Source: Corynebacterium jeikeium (GTDB lineage: Bacteria > Actinomycetota > Actinomycetes > Mycobacteriales > Mycobacteriaceae). Taken from it: a stretch of 64,000 bases of DNA. The position numbers and the translations under genes are program-made. Every line of letters starts with the position of its first letter. Within the stretch, counting starts at the first letter, position 1. Positions 5,881 to 14,155 of this stretch are shown piece after piece. Location of the stretch: assembly GCA_003955985.1 (NCBI GenBank), contig CP033784.1:1736001-1800000 (forward strand). Reading direction: 5' to 3'. The notes beneath the pieces were generated by a model. It saw nothing but the letters and a program-made list of their open reading frames with translations, was not told where the DNA came from and ran no database searches.

Positions 5881-6798
5881 TTAATTCTTATGCTTGTGTT
5901 GACGCCCAACCAGAGCGCCATACACCAGATCCAGCGTCGGCGTTTCCACTTTCGCCTTCTGCCCCATCCGGCGGATTGCGCCAATCTGGGCATCGAGCTC
6001 ATTGGTAAGTCCCGCGGTGTAGTCGCGCTGCATCGACGAGGTGTTGTCGTACCCTTGAGCATCAGTAAAGGCCAAGGTCCGCGACACGATGTCCTCTGGC
6101 AGCGCAACGCCGCAGGCTCGACCGACTGCCTCGGTTTCTTCAAACATCCGCGTCAAGCTGTCGCGCATTTCCGAACGCAAGTAACCAATCGGACTATCAG
6201 CCAGGGCACCTAGGGCACCGAGGTTAGCCACGAACATCGCTTTTGCCCAGATATCGACCCAGATATCCGGGAGCTGTTCGCCACCGAGCCCAGCCATGTG
6301 CAATGCCTCGATAACTGCCCCGACCAGGTCATTAGTGGAGTCATCGAATGTGCCGATGTTCAGGCTCATCGGTCCTGGTCGGAAGGTGACTTCTGCCGGG
6401 CCAGTGTGGATAAAGAAACCGCGGATAACACCCGGGAACACCTTGTCCTCACCGAACCGCCCCGCTGCCAAATAAGGGATTTCCACCGAGTTATGGGTGG
6501 TCACCACTGCTGCACCAGCCGGAACTTGCGGGAAAGGATCGTTGCCCGGCAGCGCCTTGGTTGCTGCAATCACAACATCGACGTCGACGCCATCGGCAGT
6601 GAGTTCACCCCAATTGTCGGCTGCTTTGACGGGGATAATGCTGCGTTCCCCGTGCTCGTCGATAAGCGTGAGCCCCACCTCACGAAGACGTGTCAGGGTC
6701 TCGCCGCGGGCGAGAAAGACGACATCATAACCCGCTTGCACGAGGCGACCGCCAAACCAGCCGCCGACAGCTCCTACACCTAAAACTCCAATCCTCAT
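5881..6798 (-). CDS. 2-dehydropantoate 2-reductase (ApbA/PanE) family protein
   Basis: A 305-aa NADPH-dependent oxidoreductase of the PanE/ApbA family. The N-terminal Rossmann motif MRIGVLGVGAVGGWFGG is at residues 1-17, and the central and C-terminal helical parts match family length. True PanE reduces 2-dehydropantoate in pantothenate synthesis, and panB is present at 27476, but it is not adjacent, and many family members have other substrates. ATG 6798 is preferred over the GTG nine bases upstream because AAGGTGG sits five bases before it. It is probably cotranscribed with the tag-like gene downstream. Confidence 0.8.
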   Translation of the reverse strand: MRIGVLGVGAVGGWFGGRLVQAGYDVVFLARGETLTRLREVGLTLIDEHGERSIIPVKAADNWGELTADGVDVDVVIAATKALPGNDPFPQVPAGAAVVTTHNSVEIPYLAAGRFGEDKVFPGVIRGFFIHTGPAEVTFRPGPMSLNIGTFDDSTNDLVGAVIEALHMAGLGGEQLPDIWVDIWAKAMFVANLGALGALADSPIGYLRSEMRDSLTRMFEETEAVGRACGVALPEDIVSRTLAFTDAQGYDNTSSMQRDYTAGLTNELDAQIGAIRRMGQKAKVETPTLDLVYGALVGRQHKHKN

Positions 6799-6958
6799 AG
6801 CTGCCACCTTACGACTTCCGCACTGAGCGCGAAATAGGTTGCATGCGGTTGTCCACAGGCAATCCAGGCTATCCCCAAATGTGAAATTTGAGCTTGATTT
6901 ACTACCTTGTCAAAACTATGTAAAGCGGAGTAGGGTCGAAATTAATAGATATCAACCC

Positions 6959-6991
6959 AGGGTTGTTACTCTTTTGAGGCAAGACCTGAGG
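6959..6991 (+). promoter_or_regulatory. RAT site (ribonucleic antiterminator) of BglG/LicT type
   Basis: The leader contains GGGTTGTTACT (6960-6970) and GGCAAGACC (6978-6986), the two halves of the classic RAT imperfect hairpin bound by BglG/LicT/SacY proteins. Its 3' half overlaps the 5' arm of the terminator at 6981, as expected for mutually exclusive folding. The matching antiterminator is encoded downstream at 9246. Confidence 0.85.
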
Positions 6992-7021
6992 CCCACAGTT
7001 TGTGGCGCCTCGGGTCTTTTT
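6981..7021 (+). terminator. Leader terminator controlled by antitermination
   Basis: AAGACC-T-GAGGC (6981-6992) pairs with GCCTC-G-GGTCTT (7007-7018), with further inner pairing of CACA and TGTG, followed by a T run. It precedes the PTS gene by about 40 bp and overlaps the RAT element. Confidence 0.88.
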
Positions 7022-7059
7022 GCGTTTAACGGCCCTGCTTACTGTGAAGGAAGGTCACG

Positions 7060-9180
7060 ATGGGGTCGTCAAAAGATTCCAGCGCGAGGGCAATAGTTGA
7101 AAACCTCGGTGGACCCGGAAACATCACAAGCATGACGCACTGTGCGACGCGTCTGCGTTTTGAACTCGGTGATGTCTCCAAGATCAACGAGGACAAGATT
7201 GACAAGGTGCCGGGCGTACTCGGTGTCGTTCACCAGGGCGATAACCGCTACCAGGTCATCTGTGGCGGTGGCGTCGAATCGATGTACACGGCAATTAAGC
7301 ATCTACCGGAAATGAAGGGCGCCGGCGCAGTCGCCACTAAGTCCGACGCAGACGTTAAGGCAGAAGCTCGCTCGAAGGCACGCGGCAAGTACTCCTGGTT
7401 GGACAACTTCTTCGAGTACCTCTCCGATTCGTTCCGCCCAATCCTGGGCGTGCTGTTGGGCGCATCGCTGATTATCGCTATTGCCGCGGTTCTCGACGGT
7501 CTGAACATCGTCGACTTCCGCGCTGAGGATAAGTCCGCTACTTGGATCTTTGTTGACGCCATGTGGCGCAGCGTCTTCTACTTCCTGCCGATCATGGTCG
7601 CCTACAACGCAGCGAAGAAGCTGCGGGTAGATCCATGGCTGGGCGCAGCCATCATGGCTGCCCTAATGACGCCGGAGTTTATGAGTCTGCAGGATACCGA
7701 TCGCTTCTCGGACACCATCAAGACAGTCAACGAGGAACTCGGTACCGAAACTTTCACCGCCAACATCTTCGGCCTGCCAATGCAGCTCAATGACTACGGC
7801 GGACAGGTCTTTGTACCGCTGATCATGGTCGCCATTCTGGCAGTGGTCTACCACGGGTTGAAGAAAATCTTCCCGGAGAATGTCCAGATGGTCTTCGTAC
7901 CGTTTATCTCCATGCTGATCATGATTCCGCTGACGGCTTTCCTCATTGGCCCGCTGGGTATCTGGCTGGGTAACGGAATTGGCTCCGGCCTTGCATGGAT
8001 GAACTCGAACGCACCGTTTGTGTTCGCAATTCTCATCCCGATGCTCTACCCGTTCCTGGTACCGCTGGGTCTGCACTGGCCGCTGAATGCCTTGATGCTG
8101 GTCAATATCCAGACTCTCGGCTACGACTTCATCCAAGGCCCGATGGGTGCCTGGAACTTCGCCTGCTTCGGTGCAACTGCCGGTGTGCTGGTTCTTTCCA
8201 TGCGCGACCGCGACACACAGATGCGCCAGACGGCAACCGGTGCACTCGCCGCAGGTCTCTTCGGTGGTATCTCCGAGCCGTCCCTCTACGGTATTCACCT
8301 GCGCTTCAAGCGGATTTACCCGCGCATGCTGCTCGGCTGTTTCGCCGGCGGTCTGACTATCGCCATCCTGTCGGCTCCGTTCGGTGGTGTGACAACCAAC
8401 GCCTTCGTCTTCACCTCCCTCATCACCACTGTCGTGTTCAAACCGATGTGGGTCTACCTGATTTCCGTCGCCGTGGCATTCTTCGTCGCCATGTTCGCCA
8501 TCATTCTCACCGACTACCGCACGCCGGAAGAGAAGGCTGAGGCCGAGGCCGCACGCGCCGCAGAGCTTGACGACGAACCCAGCGACGCCACCCCACACGC
8601 TGCCACCAGTGGCTCCGATTCGGCTCCAGCTGAGGCTTCCGGTGACGCTGGTACCAACGCCGAGGCTGCCGCACCGGCTGCTGCGGCAGCTGGCGCCGGT
8701 GGTGTCGCAACTGCCGTTGATACCAAGCCTGTACAGGTGCAGGCCCCGGTTGCCGGTGAGGTTGTCAGCCTTGCTGAGGCCGGCGACGCGGTCTTTGCCT
8801 CCGGTGCTCTCGGTGACGGTGTCGGTATCAAGCCGACCAGTTCTACCGTGGTCGCACCCGTATCGGGCACGTTGATGACTGTGGCAAAGACCGGTCACGC
8901 CTTCGGTATTAAGACCGATGACGGTGTAGAGGTACTCGTCCACGTCGGTATCGACACGGTCAAGATGGCCGGTGAAGGCTTCGATGTCCAGGTTTCCAAG
9001 AAGCAGCACGTCGAGGCCGGCGATGTTCTTGCCGAAGTCGATTTCGACAAGGTCAAGGAAGCTGGCTACCCAACCACGACACTGATGACCATCACCAATA
9101 CCAAGAAGCTGACCAAGGTTTCCCCGGTCACCGGCATCTCCGTCCAAGCCGGCGACATGGTCATCGAAGTTCAGCCATAA
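7060..9180 (+). CDS. bglF: PTS beta-glucoside-type EIIBCA permease
   Basis: A 706-aa membrane permease of the glucose/glucoside PTS family, which phosphorylates its sugar during uptake. Domain order is IIB, IIC, IIA. The IIB phospho-Cys is residue 28 in SMTHCATRLRF. The IIC domain spans about 105-485 with around ten membrane segments and the GISEPSLYG loop. IIA has His613 (HAFGIKTDDG) and the active His628 (VLVHVGIDTV). An Ala/Glu/Asp-rich linker of about 60 residues joins IIC to IIA. AAGGAAGG precedes the ATG at 7060. The RAT-terminator in front and the antiterminator behind point to a beta-glucoside-like substrate, although sucrose or glucose cannot be excluded. The bglF symbol is by family similarity only. 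Confidence 0.88.
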   Translation: MGSSKDSSARAIVENLGGPGNITSMTHCATRLRFELGDVSKINEDKIDKVPGVLGVVHQGDNRYQVICGGGVESMYTAIKHLPEMKGAGAVATKSDADVKAEARSKARGKYSWLDNFFEYLSDSFRPILGVLLGASLIIAIAAVLDGLNIVDFRAEDKSATWIFVDAMWRSVFYFLPIMVAYNAAKKLRVDPWLGAAIMAALMTPEFMSLQDTDRFSDTIKTVNEELGTETFTANIFGLPMQLNDYGGQVFVPLIMVAILAVVYHGLKKIFPENVQMVFVPFISMLIMIPLTAFLIGPLGIWLGNGIGSGLAWMNSNAPFVFAILIPMLYPFLVPLGLHWPLNALMLVNIQTLGYDFIQGPMGAWNFACFGATAGVLVLSMRDRDTQMRQTATGALAAGLFGGISEPSLYGIHLRFKRIYPRMLLGCFAGGLTIAILSAPFGGVTTNAFVFTSLITTVVFKPMWVYLISVAVAFFVAMFAIILTDYRTPEEKAEAEAARAAELDDEPSDATPHAATSGSDSAPAEASGDAGTNAEAAAPAAAAAGAGGVATAVDTKPVQVQAPVAGEVVSLAEAGDAVFASGALGDGVGIKPTSSTVVAPVSGTLMTVAKTGHAFGIKTDDGVEVLVHVGIDTVKMAGEGFDVQVSKKQHVEAGDVLAEVDFDKVKEAGYPTTTLMTITNTKKLTKVSPVTGISVQAGDMVIEVQP

Positions 9181-9245
9181 TTGATTTCTAGAAGGCATAC
9201 CGGCCTGAAATCCCTCAACTTATGGAGGAGTTCACGGTTACCGAC

Positions 9246-10505
9246 ATGGAAATCCTGAGAGTATTCAATAACAACGTGGTCCTGGCCAAGGACGCGACCG
9301 GCGAGAAAATCATCACCGGCCGCGGCATTGGCTTCAAGGCCCGCCCGGGGCAGCCGGTTGATTCGAGCAAAGTTGTTCGCATCTTTGTCCCAGCGGAAGG
9401 CCGCGATCCGGACCATATTGCCACGATGCTCACAGAAATTCCGCTGGCTCACATGACTCTTGTGACCGATGCGGTAACCGCAGCCGGCCTGCCGGAATCG
9501 ATGACGAAGAACGCTTCCCTCCTTGTGGCGTTAGCCGATCACATTGGTTTCGCCATCATGAGGGCAGCTAACGGGCAGCGAGCAGATTACCCGCTGCTCG
9601 CGGAAGTCAGCCAACTTTATAGTGAAGAATACGCGCAGGCGCAGGCGATTTTGTCGCATATCAATCGCGCTCTCAATGACCGTCGTATAGCGCCATTACC
9701 CCGCTCAGAAGCGGTGGCGATTACGTTACACCTAGTCAATGCTGGTTTTTCTACGGGTGATTTGAGCTTCACCTACACCATGACGGGCGTCCTGCAGCAG
9801 CTGCTCACAATCATTGAAAGTGATTTTGGCATCACGCTGGAGCCAGAGACTGTCAATGTGGGGCGCTTCATCACACACCTGCGCTACCTGTTCGTCCGGA
9901 TTGCCAAGCATGAGCAGTTGAAAGATCACTCCTCCGCTATTGGCCAGGCCATCCGTGACTCCGCCCCAGAGGCGTTTCGCTGCGCACAGCGTATCTCCGC
10001 AGTCATTGAACTGCGTCTGGGGTCGGGGTTGACGGAAGACGAAGTTTCCTACCTCACCCTGCACATTGCACGCATTGTGCAGGCAGCGGCTGTATCTCCC
10101 ACCGCCTCCAGGGTTTCCCGGAGCGTGCGCGACGTTGATGCTAAGCAAGCACCAGCGGGCGGCGCACCCGCGGTGGGATGTACAGGCACTGTGCCTGAGT
10201 CAGAAAATTTCACATATTCGCCCCGAAAGGATTCAACCATGATTACTCGTACCGCTACCATCGGTTCCTCCGTAGGCCTGCACGCTCGCCCGGCTTCCCT
10301 GTTCACTCAGGCTGCTGCTGAGTACGACTACGACATTGTCATTTCCCTTGACGACGAAGAGGCCGATGCCGCCTCGATCCTGGAGGTCATGACCCTCGGC
10401 GCTAAGCACGGCGACGAAGTCACGCTGAGCTGCGAGGACGACTCCGCAGCTGCAGCTCTGGACGAGCTTGCAGCCATGCTCGAGCGCGACCTGGATGCCG
10501 AGTAA
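9246..10505 (+). CDS. BglG/LicT-type antiterminator fused in frame to HPr
   Basis: One open frame of 419 aa carries an RNA-binding CAT domain (residues 1-60, MEILRVFNNNVVLAKD), PRD1 (about 65-170, conserved His99 and His162), PRD2 (about 175-285, His211 and His273), an unstructured Ala/Pro/Gly-rich linker (about 285-331), and a complete HPr domain (332-419) with GLHARPA. There is no stop codon between regulator and HPr. CAT domains bind RAT RNA; PRDs are controlled by HPr and EII phosphorylation, so a fused HPr could act in cis. ATG 9246 fits the CAT-domain start; GGAGGAG at 9224-9230 is 15 bases away, rather far, and ATG 9222 is in frame but lacks its own site. HPr also has an internal start at 10239. 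Confidence 0.85.
   Translation: MEILRVFNNNVVLAKDATGEKIITGRGIGFKARPGQPVDSSKVVRIFVPAEGRDPDHIATMLTEIPLAHMTLVTDAVTAAGLPESMTKNASLLVALADHIGFAIMRAANGQRADYPLLAEVSQLYSEEYAQAQAILSHINRALNDRRIAPLPRSEAVAITLHLVNAGFSTGDLSFTYTMTGVLQQLLTIIESDFGITLEPETVNVGRFITHLRYLFVRIAKHEQLKDHSSAIGQAIRDSAPEAFRCAQRISAVIELRLGSGLTEDEVSYLTLHIARIVQAAAVSPTASRVSRSVRDVDAKQAPAGGAPAVGCTGTVPESENFTYSPRKDSTMITRTATIGSSVGLHARPASLFTQAAAEYDYDIVISLDDEEADAASILEVMTLGAKHGDEVTLSCEDDSAAAALDELAAMLERDLDAE
10239..10505 (+). CDS. ptsH: Phosphocarrier HPr, internal start within the fusion
   Basis: Read from ATG 10239, this is an 88-aa canonical HPr with the phosphorylation site His15 (SVGLHARPAS) and regulatory Ser46 (ADAASILEVM) at exactly the classical positions. 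GAAAGG at 10225-10230 lies nine bases before this ATG, a good ribosome site, so free HPr is likely made from the same mRNA that encodes the fusion. HPr accepts phosphate from enzyme I (encoded next) and passes it to EIIA domains. The residue numbering argues that this was once a separate ptsH gene whose upstream neighbour lost its stop. Confidence 0.85.
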   Translation: MITRTATIGSSVGLHARPASLFTQAAAEYDYDIVISLDDEEADAASILEVMTLGAKHGDEVTLSCEDDSAAAALDELAAMLERDLDAE

Positions 10506-10593
10506 GCCCAGCTAAAACACTCCTGGATAACACCACGGCACACCACGACCGACGAGTATCCCCGCAGAGGTCCCGAAAAGGAGATCGGAAGCA

Positions 10594-12285
10594 ATGAACG
10601 AGCAGCACACTGTCATCTATGGCATCGGTGTCTCGACCGGTACGGCCAGCGCTGAAGTAGTAAAGGTACTCCCCGCCCCGGGAGTTGATACTCAAGAACC
10701 GTCGTCGACCGATCCCGTCGCCGATGGTGAGCGCGTCCGCGCGGCGATGGCCAACGTCGCAGAGTCGCTGAAGAAGCAGGCTGAGCACTCCAGCCCGCAG
10801 GCACGCCCGATTCTGGAGGCCACTGCGCAACTGGCTTCCGATAGGGCGCTCGCCAGGGCCGTGGTGAAGAAACTCAAGGCAGGCTCCGGCATCACCCAGG
10901 CCGTTCACGATGCCGTTGAGGACTACGCGCAGCTCCTAACCAGTCTCGGTGGCTACATGGCTGAACGTGTCACCGACCTCTACGATGTTCGCGACCGCAC
11001 AATTTGCGAGCTGCGTGGCCTGCCAAAACCGGGCGTCCCGGATGTTTCCACCCCAACTATCCTGCTTGCCGACGATCTCGCGCCCGCTGAAACCGTGGGT
11101 CTTGACCCCGAGTTGGTCGTAGGCATTGCCACCGCTGGAGGCGGGCCGACCAGTCACACGGCTATCCTCGCAGCACAGCTGGGCATTCCAGCCGTCGTTA
11201 AGGCGAAGGGCATCATGGAACTCGAGGCCGGTACCTTCGTCGCCATTGACGGCGGCGCCGGTGAGGTAATTGCGAATCCGACCGCCGATGAGGTCGCCGC
11301 GTTGGAAGAGCGTGCTCGACGCCGGGAAGCAGCCCTGGCGCAGTCTGTGGGCGCAGGCAAGACCGCTGATGGGTACCCCGTGAATCTGCTGGCCAACATT
11401 GGTACGGCGGAAGATGGTGAGTCTGCAGCAGCGCAGGATAATGAGGGCACCGGCCTGTTCCGTACTGAGTTCCTTTTCCTCGACCGCGACAAGGCTCCGA
11501 GTTTGGAAGAACAAACGGAAACCTACACTCGTGTGCTGAAGGCATTCGGTGAGCGACGCGTGGTTGTGCGCACACTGGATGCGGGTGCGGATAAGCCGCT
11601 GAGCTTTGCCGACCTAGGCGAGGAAGAAAACCCGGCGCTGGGTCGCCGCGGACTGCGCCTGTCGCAGGCTCGGGAAGATTTGCTGGATACGCAGCTGGAT
11701 GCACTCGCCGCTGCGTTTGATGCCACCGGCCGCAAGGCTGACCTGCGGGTTATGGCTCCGATGATAGCAACGGTCGAAGAAACAAAGTGGTTTGCGGACA
11801 GGGCGCGTGAGCGTGGCCTGCCGAAGGTCGGCATCATGATTGAGGTCCCCGCAGCAGCAATTCGCGCGAAGCAGCTGCTGTCCATTGTGGACTTTGCCTC
11901 CATTGGTACTAACGACTTGTCGCAGTACACTATGGCGGCCGACCGCATGCAGGGGGCTCTGGCGGATCTGCTTTCTCCGTGGCAACCAGCGGTACTGCAA
12001 ATGATTAAGTCCGCATGCAAGGGCGGCAATGCTACCGGCAAGCCCATTAGTGTCTGCGGTGAAGCCGGCGGTGACCCGCTGCTGGCACTGGTCCTGGTGG
12101 GTCTCGGCGTGAGCTCGCTGTCCATGGCTTCCAAGAAGGTACCGGCCGTCCGCGCCGCTCTCCGCCTCCACGACCGCGCTACCTGCCAGCAGATGGCAGC
12201 GTACGCTGTCGATGCCGAGACTGCGGCCGATGCGAAGGCCGCAGTGACCGCGCTTGTGGATCCGAAGGTGAAGGATCTGCTGTAG
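10594..12285 (+). CDS. ptsI: PTS enzyme I (phosphoenolpyruvate-protein phosphotransferase)
   Basis: A 563-aa enzyme I, which transfers phosphate from PEP to HPr in the cytosol. The active His is residue 188 in GGGPTSHTAILA; PEP-binding motifs GLFRTEFLFLDRD, MIEVPAAAI and GTNDLSQYTMAADR follow, as does the C-terminal SVCGEAGGDP. Length matches the family (about 560-575). AAAAGGAGATC precedes the ATG. It is the last gene of the PTS operon, 88 bp after the antiterminator-HPr gene, so a general PTS enzyme appears to depend on a RAT-controlled promoter. A terminator follows. Confidence 0.95.
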   Translation: MNEQHTVIYGIGVSTGTASAEVVKVLPAPGVDTQEPSSTDPVADGERVRAAMANVAESLKKQAEHSSPQARPILEATAQLASDRALARAVVKKLKAGSGITQAVHDAVEDYAQLLTSLGGYMAERVTDLYDVRDRTICELRGLPKPGVPDVSTPTILLADDLAPAETVGLDPELVVGIATAGGGPTSHTAILAAQLGIPAVVKAKGIMELEAGTFVAIDGGAGEVIANPTADEVAALEERARRREAALAQSVGAGKTADGYPVNLLANIGTAEDGESAAAQDNEGTGLFRTEFLFLDRDKAPSLEEQTETYTRVLKAFGERRVVVRTLDAGADKPLSFADLGEEENPALGRRGLRLSQAREDLLDTQLDALAAAFDATGRKADLRVMAPMIATVEETKWFADRARERGLPKVGIMIEVPAAAIRAKQLLSIVDFASIGTNDLSQYTMAADRMQGALADLLSPWQPAVLQMIKSACKGGNATGKPISVCGEAGGDPLLALVLVGLGVSSLSMASKKVPAVRAALRLHDRATCQQMAAYAVDAETAADAKAAVTALVDPKVKDLL

Positions 12286-12303
12286 AGCGACGGAATTATT
12301 ACT

Positions 12304-12353
12304 GAGCCCGGCGCACACACGGTCAGCGTAAAAGTGTGTGCCAGGCTCTTTCT
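12304..12353 (+). terminator. Terminator after ptsI
   Basis: GAGCC and GCACACAC (12304-12320) pair with GTGTGTGC and GGCTC (12334-12348), with a T-rich tail. Confidence 0.85.
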
Positions 12354-12751
12354 TTATTGGCGCATCGATCGATCACGAGCAGCAAACTTTCTGGGAATTT
12401 TCTTGATTTTCCCTCTCTCGAACGCCCCATTAGGATAAATAGAGTGCCTTCGTCGGCACCACCAACGCCGTCGAAGCCCCTTAATAGTTCAAATAAAGAC
12501 GGCTCATACAAGCCGCAACTTAATTCACGCATCAGGCTCCACCCAGCCCGTGACAATTCACAATTTCACATTAAAGTGTCAGTTTTTCGGCATCGTGGCC
12601 TGTCATCTACATGGGCACACGAACTGCAATTGCGCTGCTGTAACGGGCGTTTGCGCCACCGCAGCACCAGCGACAACGGCGTCGCCACAGCAGCATGCAG
12701 CATCGCCCTTGACCTTACGGGCGACACTAATTTAGAAAGAACACAATTCTC
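12354..12751. other. Intergenic region upstream of brnQ
   Basis: No gene is supported in these 398 bp. A 10-codon frame at 12611-12643 reads MGTRTAIALL and is followed by GC-rich sequence with a small hairpin (TCGCCC at 12692-12697 with GGGCGA at 12719-12724). This could be an attenuation leader for branched-chain amino acid control, but there is no good ribosome site. Confidence 0.35.
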
Positions 12752-14155
12752 ATGACCAAGTCGAGCGGAGTGGAGTCCCCGAAGTCTTTCGCTTCCATAA
12801 TCGTTGTTACAGCGCTCATGCTGTTTTCGATGTTCTTCGGCGCGGGCAACCTCATCTTCCCGCCGAAGCTCGGAGTGGATTCCGGTACCAACTTTGGCCC
12901 CTCAATCACCGGCTTCCTGCTCACCGGTGTGGCGTTGCCAGTTCTGGCCATCATCGCCATCGCCATTTCAGGCAGCAATTTACGTGACCTAGCGTTCCGC
13001 GCGGGCCGCATCTTTTCCCTGAGCTTCCCGGTAATCGCATACCTTTCCATCGGTGCTTTCTACGCTCTGCCGCGTACCGGTGCCGTGTCATACGAAACCG
13101 GTGTCCAGCCGGTTTTCGGCAGTGATTCGCTGGCCGCCGCTGCGGCCTTCTACTTTGTTTTCTTCGGTATCGCCTTGGCATTGGCGTGGAATCCGAATGA
13201 AATTGTGTCCAAACTGGGCAAGATTCTCACCCCGGCTCTGCTGATTCTCTTGGTTGTATTGGTTGGAATGTCGGCATTCAAATTCGATGCCGCTCCGGCT
13301 GCGCCAATTGAAAAGTACTCCTCTACCCCATTTGCCTCCGGCCTAGTCGAGGGCTACCTCACCATGGACTCCATCGCCGGCCTTGCATTCGGCATCATTG
13401 TCATTTCTGCCCTCCGCGTCAGCGGTGTCCCAGAGGGCAAGCGTATGGTTCGCGGCACAATGATCTCAGGCCTGTTCGCCGGCATTTTGCTGGCCATCAT
13501 CTACTTGGGATTGGGCTATGTCGGCCAGGTGCTGCCGAATGCTGCCTCCTTCGATAACGGCTCGGGCATCCTCGCAGAGGCTTCCAAACAGGCCATGGGT
13601 CAGGGCGGTCAGATTGTCTTCGGTCTCATCGTTCTGCTGGCATGCATGACCACAGCCGTCGGTCTGATTGCCGCAACCAGTGAGTTCTTCAATCTGCTGC
13701 TTCCGGGTATCAGTTACAAGGCCTGGGCGATTGTCTTCACGGTCATGTCCTTCGTAATGGCAACACAGGGGCTGTCTCAGGTACTGGCGATTGCCGCGCC
13801 GATTATCACCTTTATTTACCCGCCGGCAATCACGCTGATTGCACTGACACTTCTCGACCCAGTCATTTCTTACTCCTTCAAGCTGTATTACACCTACCGC
13901 CTGGGCGTCTGGGTTGCCACCATCTGGTCGGGTATCTCAGTACTCTCCGGTTTGGGTGTCGGTGGTTCTGCTTTGGCGGACTTCCTTAGTCTCGTGCCTG
14001 GTCAGACCATCGAGTTCGGATGGTTCCTGCCGACTCTGGCAGCGGTGGTGATTGGTTACGCAATTGACGTCGTCACGCGAAAGCAGCGCGCAAACCGCCC
14101 GGCGAGTGTGCTTGCCGACGAGGCCGTTACAGAAGAGGTAGCCGAAAAGGCGTAA
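12752..14155 (+). CDS. brnQ: Branched-chain amino acid carrier BrnQ
   Basis: A 467-aa, 12-TM LIV carrier (LIVCS family) importing leucine, isoleucine and valine with Na+ or H+. The family N-terminus is clear: TALMLFSMFFGAGNLIFPPKLG, with NLIFPP the hallmark; SYKAW and TATSEFF-like segments also fit. AGAAAG precedes the ATG at 12752. A hydrophilic Arg/Glu-rich tail ends the protein. It is followed on the same strand by a DAACS symporter after 80 bp, forming a two-gene transporter group. Confidence 0.93.
   Translation: MTKSSGVESPKSFASIIVVTALMLFSMFFGAGNLIFPPKLGVDSGTNFGPSITGFLLTGVALPVLAIIAIAISGSNLRDLAFRAGRIFSLSFPVIAYLSIGAFYALPRTGAVSYETGVQPVFGSDSLAAAAAFYFVFFGIALALAWNPNEIVSKLGKILTPALLILLVVLVGMSAFKFDAAPAAPIEKYSSTPFASGLVEGYLTMDSIAGLAFGIIVISALRVSGVPEGKRMVRGTMISGLFAGILLAIIYLGLGYVGQVLPNAASFDNGSGILAEASKQAMGQGGQIVFGLIVLLACMTTAVGLIAATSEFFNLLLPGISYKAWAIVFTVMSFVMATQGLSQVLAIAAPIITFIYPPAITLIALTLLDPVISYSFKLYYTYRLGVWVATIWSGISVLSGLGVGGSALADFLSLVPGQTIEFGWFLPTLAAVVIGYAIDVVTRKQRANRPASVLADEAVTEEVAEKA

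Follow-up and report, generated by a model that had tools for sequence, protein, structure and literature searches.

A BglG/LicT-type antiterminator joined to the phosphocarrier HPr in a PTS operon of Corynebacterium jeikeium

We describe a gene of Corynebacterium jeikeium whose product, by the family tests applied to its sequence, is a BglG-type antiterminator and an HPr within one chain. Comparison across the genus indicates that this is a real fusion and that it has been kept in evolution. The preliminary description of this DNA knew of no comparable example, and we likewise found no description of an antiterminator-HPr fusion in searches of the open-access literature.

Results

Domain structure of the fused protein

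The features discussed below are listed with their positions in the window, by which we mean the whole stretch of 64,000 nucleotides that was analysed.

6958..6988, + strand: RAT-like RNA antiterminator hairpin, GGGTTGTTACTC-TTTT-GAGGCAAGACC (fold -10.3 kcal/mol, z only -1.56)
6981..7022, + strand: intrinsic terminator overlapping the 3' arm of the RAT and ending in TTTTT (-29.0 kcal/mol, z -7.13)
7060..9180, + strand: PTS enzyme II (EIIB-EIIC-EIIA), nearest to the beta-glucoside subfamily
9246..10505, + strand: fused BglG/LicT-type antiterminator-HPr gene, 419 aa (translation, Pfam, NCBIfam)
9246..9392, + strand: CAT RNA-binding domain, residues 1-49 (PF03123, 61.4 bits)
9501..9743, + strand: PRD1 with H99 and H162 (both invariant in 31 aligned fused proteins)
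9795..10073, + strand: PRD2 with H211 and H273 (both invariant in the same 31 proteins)
10080..10238, + strand: linker, fast-evolving, open in frame, predicted to be disordered and probably a former intergenic spacer
10225..10231, + strand: internal ribosome site GAAAGGA, 7 nt 5' of the ATG at 10239 (in 11 of 14 fused Corynebacterium genomes)
10239..10505, + strand: HPr domain, possibly also a free HPr of 88 aa (TIGR01003, 88 bits against a cut-off of 47.9)
10594..12285, + strand: PTS enzyme I (ptsI), the only enzyme I found in the genome

The preliminary description saw a BglG/LicT regulator with four PRD histidines and, in the same uninterrupted frame, a complete HPr that has His15 and Ser46 at their canonical positions and a ribosome site and ATG of its own. 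All of this was borne out. Positions 9246-10505 of the forward strand hold a single reading frame, 419 codons long and closed by a stop, on which Pfam places CAT_RBD at residues 1-49, PRD in two stretches and PTS-HPr at 334-413, all above their cut-offs; His15 of HPr is H346 (10281-10283) and Ser46 is S377, and the ribosome site stands 7 nt ahead of the ATG. The fusion has a calculated mass of 44.9 kDa and HPr alone one of 9.3 kDa, compared with the values of about 46 and 9 kDa given earlier.

With its N-terminal CAT domain and two PRDs, the four conserved histidines and a RAT overlapping a terminator ahead of the target operon (by sequence and fold), the protein belongs with the BglG/SacY antiterminators, and its C-terminal part is a whole HPr domain above the family cut-off (TIGR01003/PF00381) with the active histidine in GLHARPA. 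The four PRD histidines are invariant, and the active-site histidine of HPr is retained in 30, among 31 aligned fused proteins chosen from 56 available. H211 and H273 align with positions of LicT, which we take to be H207 and H269, that hold His in chain 1tlv and Asp in chain 1h99. Scores against the LicT equivalog (NF046042, 218.7 bits, cut-off 300) and the GlcT equivalog (NF047357, 182.4 bits, cut-off 320) place the protein outside both. Nor is it a multiphosphoryl transfer protein, as Pfam finds no EI or IIA domain and NCBIfam matches to such models fall far below their cut-offs. Activators of the MtlR/LicR/LevR type, by a definition taken in part from the accessible text of PMC6148471, have a DNA-binding N-terminus and EIIA/EIIB-like domains; this protein has CAT_RBD at its N-terminus and no EIIA or EIIB domain by Pfam.

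Retention of the fusion across Corynebacterium

An open fused frame occurs in at least 14 of 242 Corynebacterium genomes. With the fused protein as query, at least seven genomes match over residues 1-419 in one open frame and at least six more match as two pieces of one open frame; G264 was counted as fused on the ground that its HPr domain match lies on the same frame as its antiterminator. As such a query may favour fused genomes, the same 242 genomes were searched with HPr alone, which gave matches in 133 at E 1e-20 or better. Thirteen genomes match at 66-100% identity, every one on an open frame of 395-442 aa, and the remaining matches listed are at 60% identity or below, on frames of 89-299 aa; no unfused copy of the HPr type with at least 66% identity is present among the matches at E 1e-20 in the 242 genomes. 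The fourteenth fused genome is G264, whose fused HPr is too divergent for this listing, the match listed being its free HPr.

The linkers of the 14 fused genomes range from 3 to 58 codons, with 11 distinct lengths, and contain no stops. A rough chance estimate over these 11 lengths gives a log10 of -3.7 for the lack of stops and of -8.9 when the frame is included, a figure that treats the lengths as independent although the genomes are related. In the window genome alone, the 53-codon linker is free of stops in 27% of dinucleotide shuffles. We considered a chance open frame, which the comparative data rule out even though these single-genome odds are unremarkable, and an assembly or sequencing error, which we reject because many independent genomes concur. 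A search of related Corynebacterium genomes had been proposed in the preliminary description, with a stop or frameshift between the domains in all close relatives as the outcome that would count against it; this did not occur, though stops are present in one Trueperella genome.

In G264 (locus L126; compare P0059) the active histidine of HPr is replaced by Gln (GLQARAA), and enzyme I and a free HPr are located elsewhere in the genome. The HPr domain of this member is either decaying or purely structural.

Operon and genome context

The gene stands in a PTS operon, as had been proposed: behind the RAT and terminator, the order is EIIBCA, the antiterminator-HPr fusion and enzyme I. Beta-glucoside transporters are only the nearest relatives of the EII, which reaches 505.5 bits against a TIGR01995 cut-off of 614.7, and no substrate is assigned. 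Equal stability to that of the terminator at 6981-7022 was reached in none of 200 shuffles. The RAT at 6958-6988 was identified by reading the sequence, and a RAT pattern precedes the EII gene in 12 of the 14 fused Corynebacterium genomes, counting loci L056, L057, L058 and L060 for G034, G223, G184 and G001, with no match in G120 and G257; a shorter form of the pattern has one match in the window's own genome and none in the control. The third pair of the upper stem, read by eye, is C-G in the window, G-C in G080 and T-A in G264, and these pair changes support a real hairpin. A long RAT consensus gave no match in the window, and the short motif CAGGCAAAAC occurs at chance level (55 matches, 58 expected). 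An Rfam scan of 6000-12500 returned nothing close to a gathering score, and a promoter scan of 6000-13000 found three candidates where 2.5 are expected, so that no internal promoter could be called. We also considered a second RAT within the linker, where ACAGGC presumably resembles the right arm of RAT motifs, and rejected it: a left arm is missing, and in predicted folding stability the linker RNA does not surpass its shuffles (z +1.13).

The fusion is the sole PRD protein found in its own genome, which also has a second HPr behind a fructose-type EII. This is the ptsF-ptsH arrangement of C. glutamicum (PMC2222622; papers are cited by PMC number for the accessible parts of their text). Enzyme I lies directly 3' of the fusion in 13 of the 14 fused Corynebacterium genomes. 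Another HPr is encoded elsewhere in 12, and no HPr besides the fused one was found in G184 and G154.

Three further Corynebacterium loci, L128 (G162), L129 (G117) and L130 (G068), hold EII-bglG-ptsI operons with no HPr between, and the sole HPr found in these genomes sits elsewhere. At L060 (11325-13005, C. lactis S064) two frames share the match to enzyme I, with the split near residue 82 reflecting either a true break or a sequencing error.

The linker and the internal start

Of the 14 fused Corynebacterium genomes, 11 retain GAAAGGA-N7-ATG within a linker that otherwise changes freely, so that the linker resembles a spacer constrained at its ribosome site. The linkers of loci L001 and L002 differ at 11 first, 5 second and 5 third codon positions, and 14 of the 17 changed codons are non-synonymous; this lack of a third-position excess is as expected of an unconstrained linker or of untranslated DNA. 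The HPr parts of the same two loci differ by 16 synonymous and no amino-acid changes. The internal start is absent from the direct fusions G074 and G245, which have a linker of three codons, and from G264; in the direct fusions HPr would thus be obtainable only as part of the fusion. Where ribosome site and start are conserved two products are likely, and going by sequence we hold it very probable of each, the fusion and the free HPr, that it is translated. This supports the earlier proposal that one cistron could give both products.

Among the residues that are identical in seven genomes, the codons are identical too in 14 of 22 cases at residues 281-340 and in about 62 of 251 elsewhere (back-calculated). 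We discarded this as evidence on the linker, since in a fast-evolving stretch the residues that remain identical are those never hit. A link between loss of the start and possession of a second HPr was discarded as well: all three start-less genomes have another HPr, but so do 12 of the 14 overall.

A DNA island, TACAGGC (10181-10187 in the window), is present in the linkers of nine of the 14 fused genomes (G000, G064, G065, G034, G223, G138, G001, G184 and G154), in several of them preceded by GGTGGG (10170-10187 region). It might belong to a ptsHI promoter or to a regulator site. Public entries for the gene are inconsistent, P0139, P0150 and P0152 being an 88-aa HPr from the internal Met and P0002 and P0036 the fusion.

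Relatives outside Corynebacterium and the origin of the fusion

Four of nine genomes in the genus of G655 match, three with open-frame fusions and one, G1016, with stops; the genus is taken as Trueperella because the fusion of G655 is 98% identical to P0053 of T. pecoris. The linker of G1016 contains two TAG codons, and the ribosome site and ATG of HPr are retained. These stops and the kept start indicate that the fusion is dispensable in G1016, where HPr would have to come from the internal start. The four matching genomes (loci L176-L183) also have a second antiterminator (a 278-aa frame) and a second HPr; in G655, G1013 and G1016 these are within 8 to 15 kb of the first gene, be it fused or split, and in G1012 they are on another contig.

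In a database of 5.8 billion proteins, PRD and HPr occur together in 55 of 120 listed relatives, and the cluster P0002 represents 186 member sequences. A query with the HPr part, which reaches fairly close HPr relatives only, found 68 HPr-containing proteins of about 230-733 aa; 52 have a PRD, all of the same family by similarity, and the other 16 hold HPr with other or no named domains. Two further odd HPr fusions were seen, P0126 with PF00107/PF08240, which we take to be alcohol dehydrogenase-type domains, and P0131 with PF02378 (EIIC) and PF02302, presumably an EIIB type.

One order of relatives gave matches in 68 of 396 genomes; 30 loci were examined together with 1.5-kb flanks. HPr and enzyme I follow the antiterminator in five of the 30, fused in the T. 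pecoris-like L142 and as separate genes in L141, L155, L158 and L161; in L141 the antiterminator and HPr genes are in the same frame and the first is closed by TGA. That unfused relatives have this operon with its genes kept apart suggests that the linker is an old spacer. A search for such ancestral neighbours in the order around G293, which covered five genomes only, found nothing; at class level it gave four of 394.

All 35 fused rows of our second tree (75 rows) fall within one starred group of 39, the others in the group being L173, P0060, P0057 and P0058. In the first tree (70 rows) the fused rows G257, G120 and P0052 lie outside the main clade, very long branches are present, and six of 35 unfused loci are without a row; for the second, eight long unfused rows were removed and 13 others added, and L153 is not included. 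Both trees were built by a quick method only. P0057 (280 aa) and P0058 (286 aa) lie inside the fused clade and lack HPr, the contig of P0058 being only 957 bases long, so that this protein may be cut. The simplest story, in which we infer the direction of change, is one stop loss between adjacent genes, with transfer between Corynebacterium and Trueperella, and with later reversal of the fusion in G1016 and possibly P0057 and P0058.

Structure models

In the predicted monomer of the window protein the linker (residues 284-330) has a pLDDT below 50, the pTM is 0.42 and no fixed docking of the domains is predicted. In the model of a direct fusion two residues separate the H273 helix (264-281) from the first strand of HPr, which comes after it, at a pLDDT of about 90; this too is a monomer, and with a pTM of 0.52 the placement of its domains is unsure. 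By these models, transfer of phosphate in cis is possible.

Discussion

The Corynebacterium protein shares with the antiterminators LicT of B. subtilis and BglG of E. coli the CAT domain, two PRDs, four histidines, the RAT-terminator overlap and the adjoining EII gene. Those proteins end after PRD2 and receive phosphate from a separate HPr, whereas here HPr forms the C-terminus. In the ptsGHI region of B. subtilis, too, ptsH and ptsI come after an EII gene under RAT control; the region differs in that glcT lies upstream, unfused and with its own promoter, and that ptsHI has a separate promoter (PMC12445079, in the text available). HPr is one domain of a longer protein in the multiphosphoryl transfer proteins FPr/FruB, IIA-HPr and EI-HPr (PMC2405797, accessible part), but its partners there are the phosphorelay domains IIA and EI and not an RNA-binding regulator. 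In MtlR and the AtxA/Mga-type PCVRs a PTS-derived domain is fused to PRDs (PMC6148471 and PMC8560693, in their accessible portions); these domains are EIIA- or EIIB-like, whereas the Corynebacterium fusion carries the phosphate donor HPr.

We propose the following model. Within an EII-bglG-ptsH-ptsI operon, loss of the bglG stop codon would have fused the antiterminator in frame to the downstream ptsH. The operon would be controlled through the antiterminator's own terminator and RAT, the latter of which the fusion is expected to bind. One cistron would have two products: translation from the bglG start would give the fusion, and the ptsH ribosome site, which has been retained, would give free HPr. 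The free HPr would supply the sugar PTS. Enzyme I, encoded next door, would charge the fused HPr at His15, and this would pass its phosphate to PRD2 (H211/H273) of the same chain or of a dimer partner, while EII would still phosphorylate PRD1 and so turn the regulator off when its sugar is absent. With a tethered donor, activation would follow the phosphate state of enzyme I and not encounters with the pool of free HPr. Taken as a whole, from the fusion and the RAT-controlled operon to the dual output and the tethered donor for PRD2, we give this account an even chance of being right; transfer in cis from the tethered HPr to PRD2, as judged from sequence, is the likeliest mechanism and falls just short of an even chance.

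The regulatory part of the model draws on other members of the family, in which phosphorylation of PRD1 by EII inactivates and that of PRD2 by HPr activates (PMC7430163 and PMC6148471, accessible parts). GlcT of B. subtilis is active when unphosphorylated (PMC12445079, accessible text), and activation of PRD2 by HPr is thus not necessary in every member. Were such behaviour, together with a separate ptsHI promoter, to hold here, the simple donor picture would be weakened. A donor mechanism is impossible in G264, where Gln stands in place of the HPr histidine, and in 12 of the 14 fused genomes another HPr could act in trans. A route through Ser46 is unlikely. The C-terminal domain of HPr kinase was found in none of the 14 fused genomes, a weak result, as B. 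subtilis, which has an HPr kinase gene, also gave no match as the control; in C. glutamicum, HPr kinase activity was reported as not detected (PMC2222622, accessible part), and it is on these two points that the judgement rests.

The same observations can be read with less of a role for the tether. The stop may have been lost and the read-through tolerated, the HPr tail having no function in cis and most HPr coming from the internal start. The kept ribosome site, the fast evolution of the linker without amino-acid constraint, the absence of the fusion from G1016 and, inside the clade, from P0057 and P0058, and a long disordered linker with no predicted docking are all in keeping with this. A tolerated accident is harder to reconcile with the finding that all 13 Corynebacterium genomes with the HPr type of at least 66% identity have it fused, that the fused state persists over 11 different linker lengths in 14 genomes, and that the direct fusions have dropped the internal start yet kept the fusion; we consider it unlikely, if a serious competitor. 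If the tether does matter, its main use could be to target the regulator to EIIA/EII or enzyme I, or to shield PRD2 from foreign HPr. The second HPr of 12 fused genomes is one against which the regulator might need insulation, and one member holds an HPr-like domain without the active histidine; retention of that histidine in 30 of 31 aligned proteins speaks against such a use, as does the lack of predicted docking in the monomer models, and we regard it as improbable.

A further reading is that little or no fusion protein is made, the linker being open because a ptsHI promoter and ribosome site happen to hold few stops, and HPr coming from a transcript of its own. A strong separate promoter upstream of ptsH serves ptsHI in B. 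subtilis (PMC12445079, accessible text), the TACAGGC island is common to nine of the 14 linkers, and some public entries give the 88-aa HPr from the internal Met (P0139, P0150 and P0152). Yet a promoter needs no reading frame, and the frame is kept in all 13 genomes; G074 and G245 have no internal start from which a separate HPr could be made, and the promoter scan of 6000-13000 did no better than chance. We judge this reading very improbable. Returning to the tethered donor, we tentatively carry it one step further, to a self-charging antiterminator in which the fused HPr would be a dedicated cis donor to PRD2 and the internal start would provide general HPr; this is possible, and we hold it with some doubt.

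If the self-charging reading is true, the regulator would read the phosphate of enzyme I directly and would control both its own donor and the genome's only enzyme I. Derived lineages would then have split these roles, with a regulatory HPr only in the direct fusions and, in the one dead HPr, a pure regulatory module. The locus itself is treated inconsistently by public gene entries. PRD regulators are a standard case of regulation by reversible histidine phosphorylation from HPr and EII, in which the partners are pictured as meeting as separate proteins. A regulator joined by nature to its donor, retained across many species and present both with a second start and without one, offers a ready test of whether the concentration or the identity of the donor sets the switch, and it suggests that a single stop-codon loss can make an operon neighbour into a domain of the regulator.
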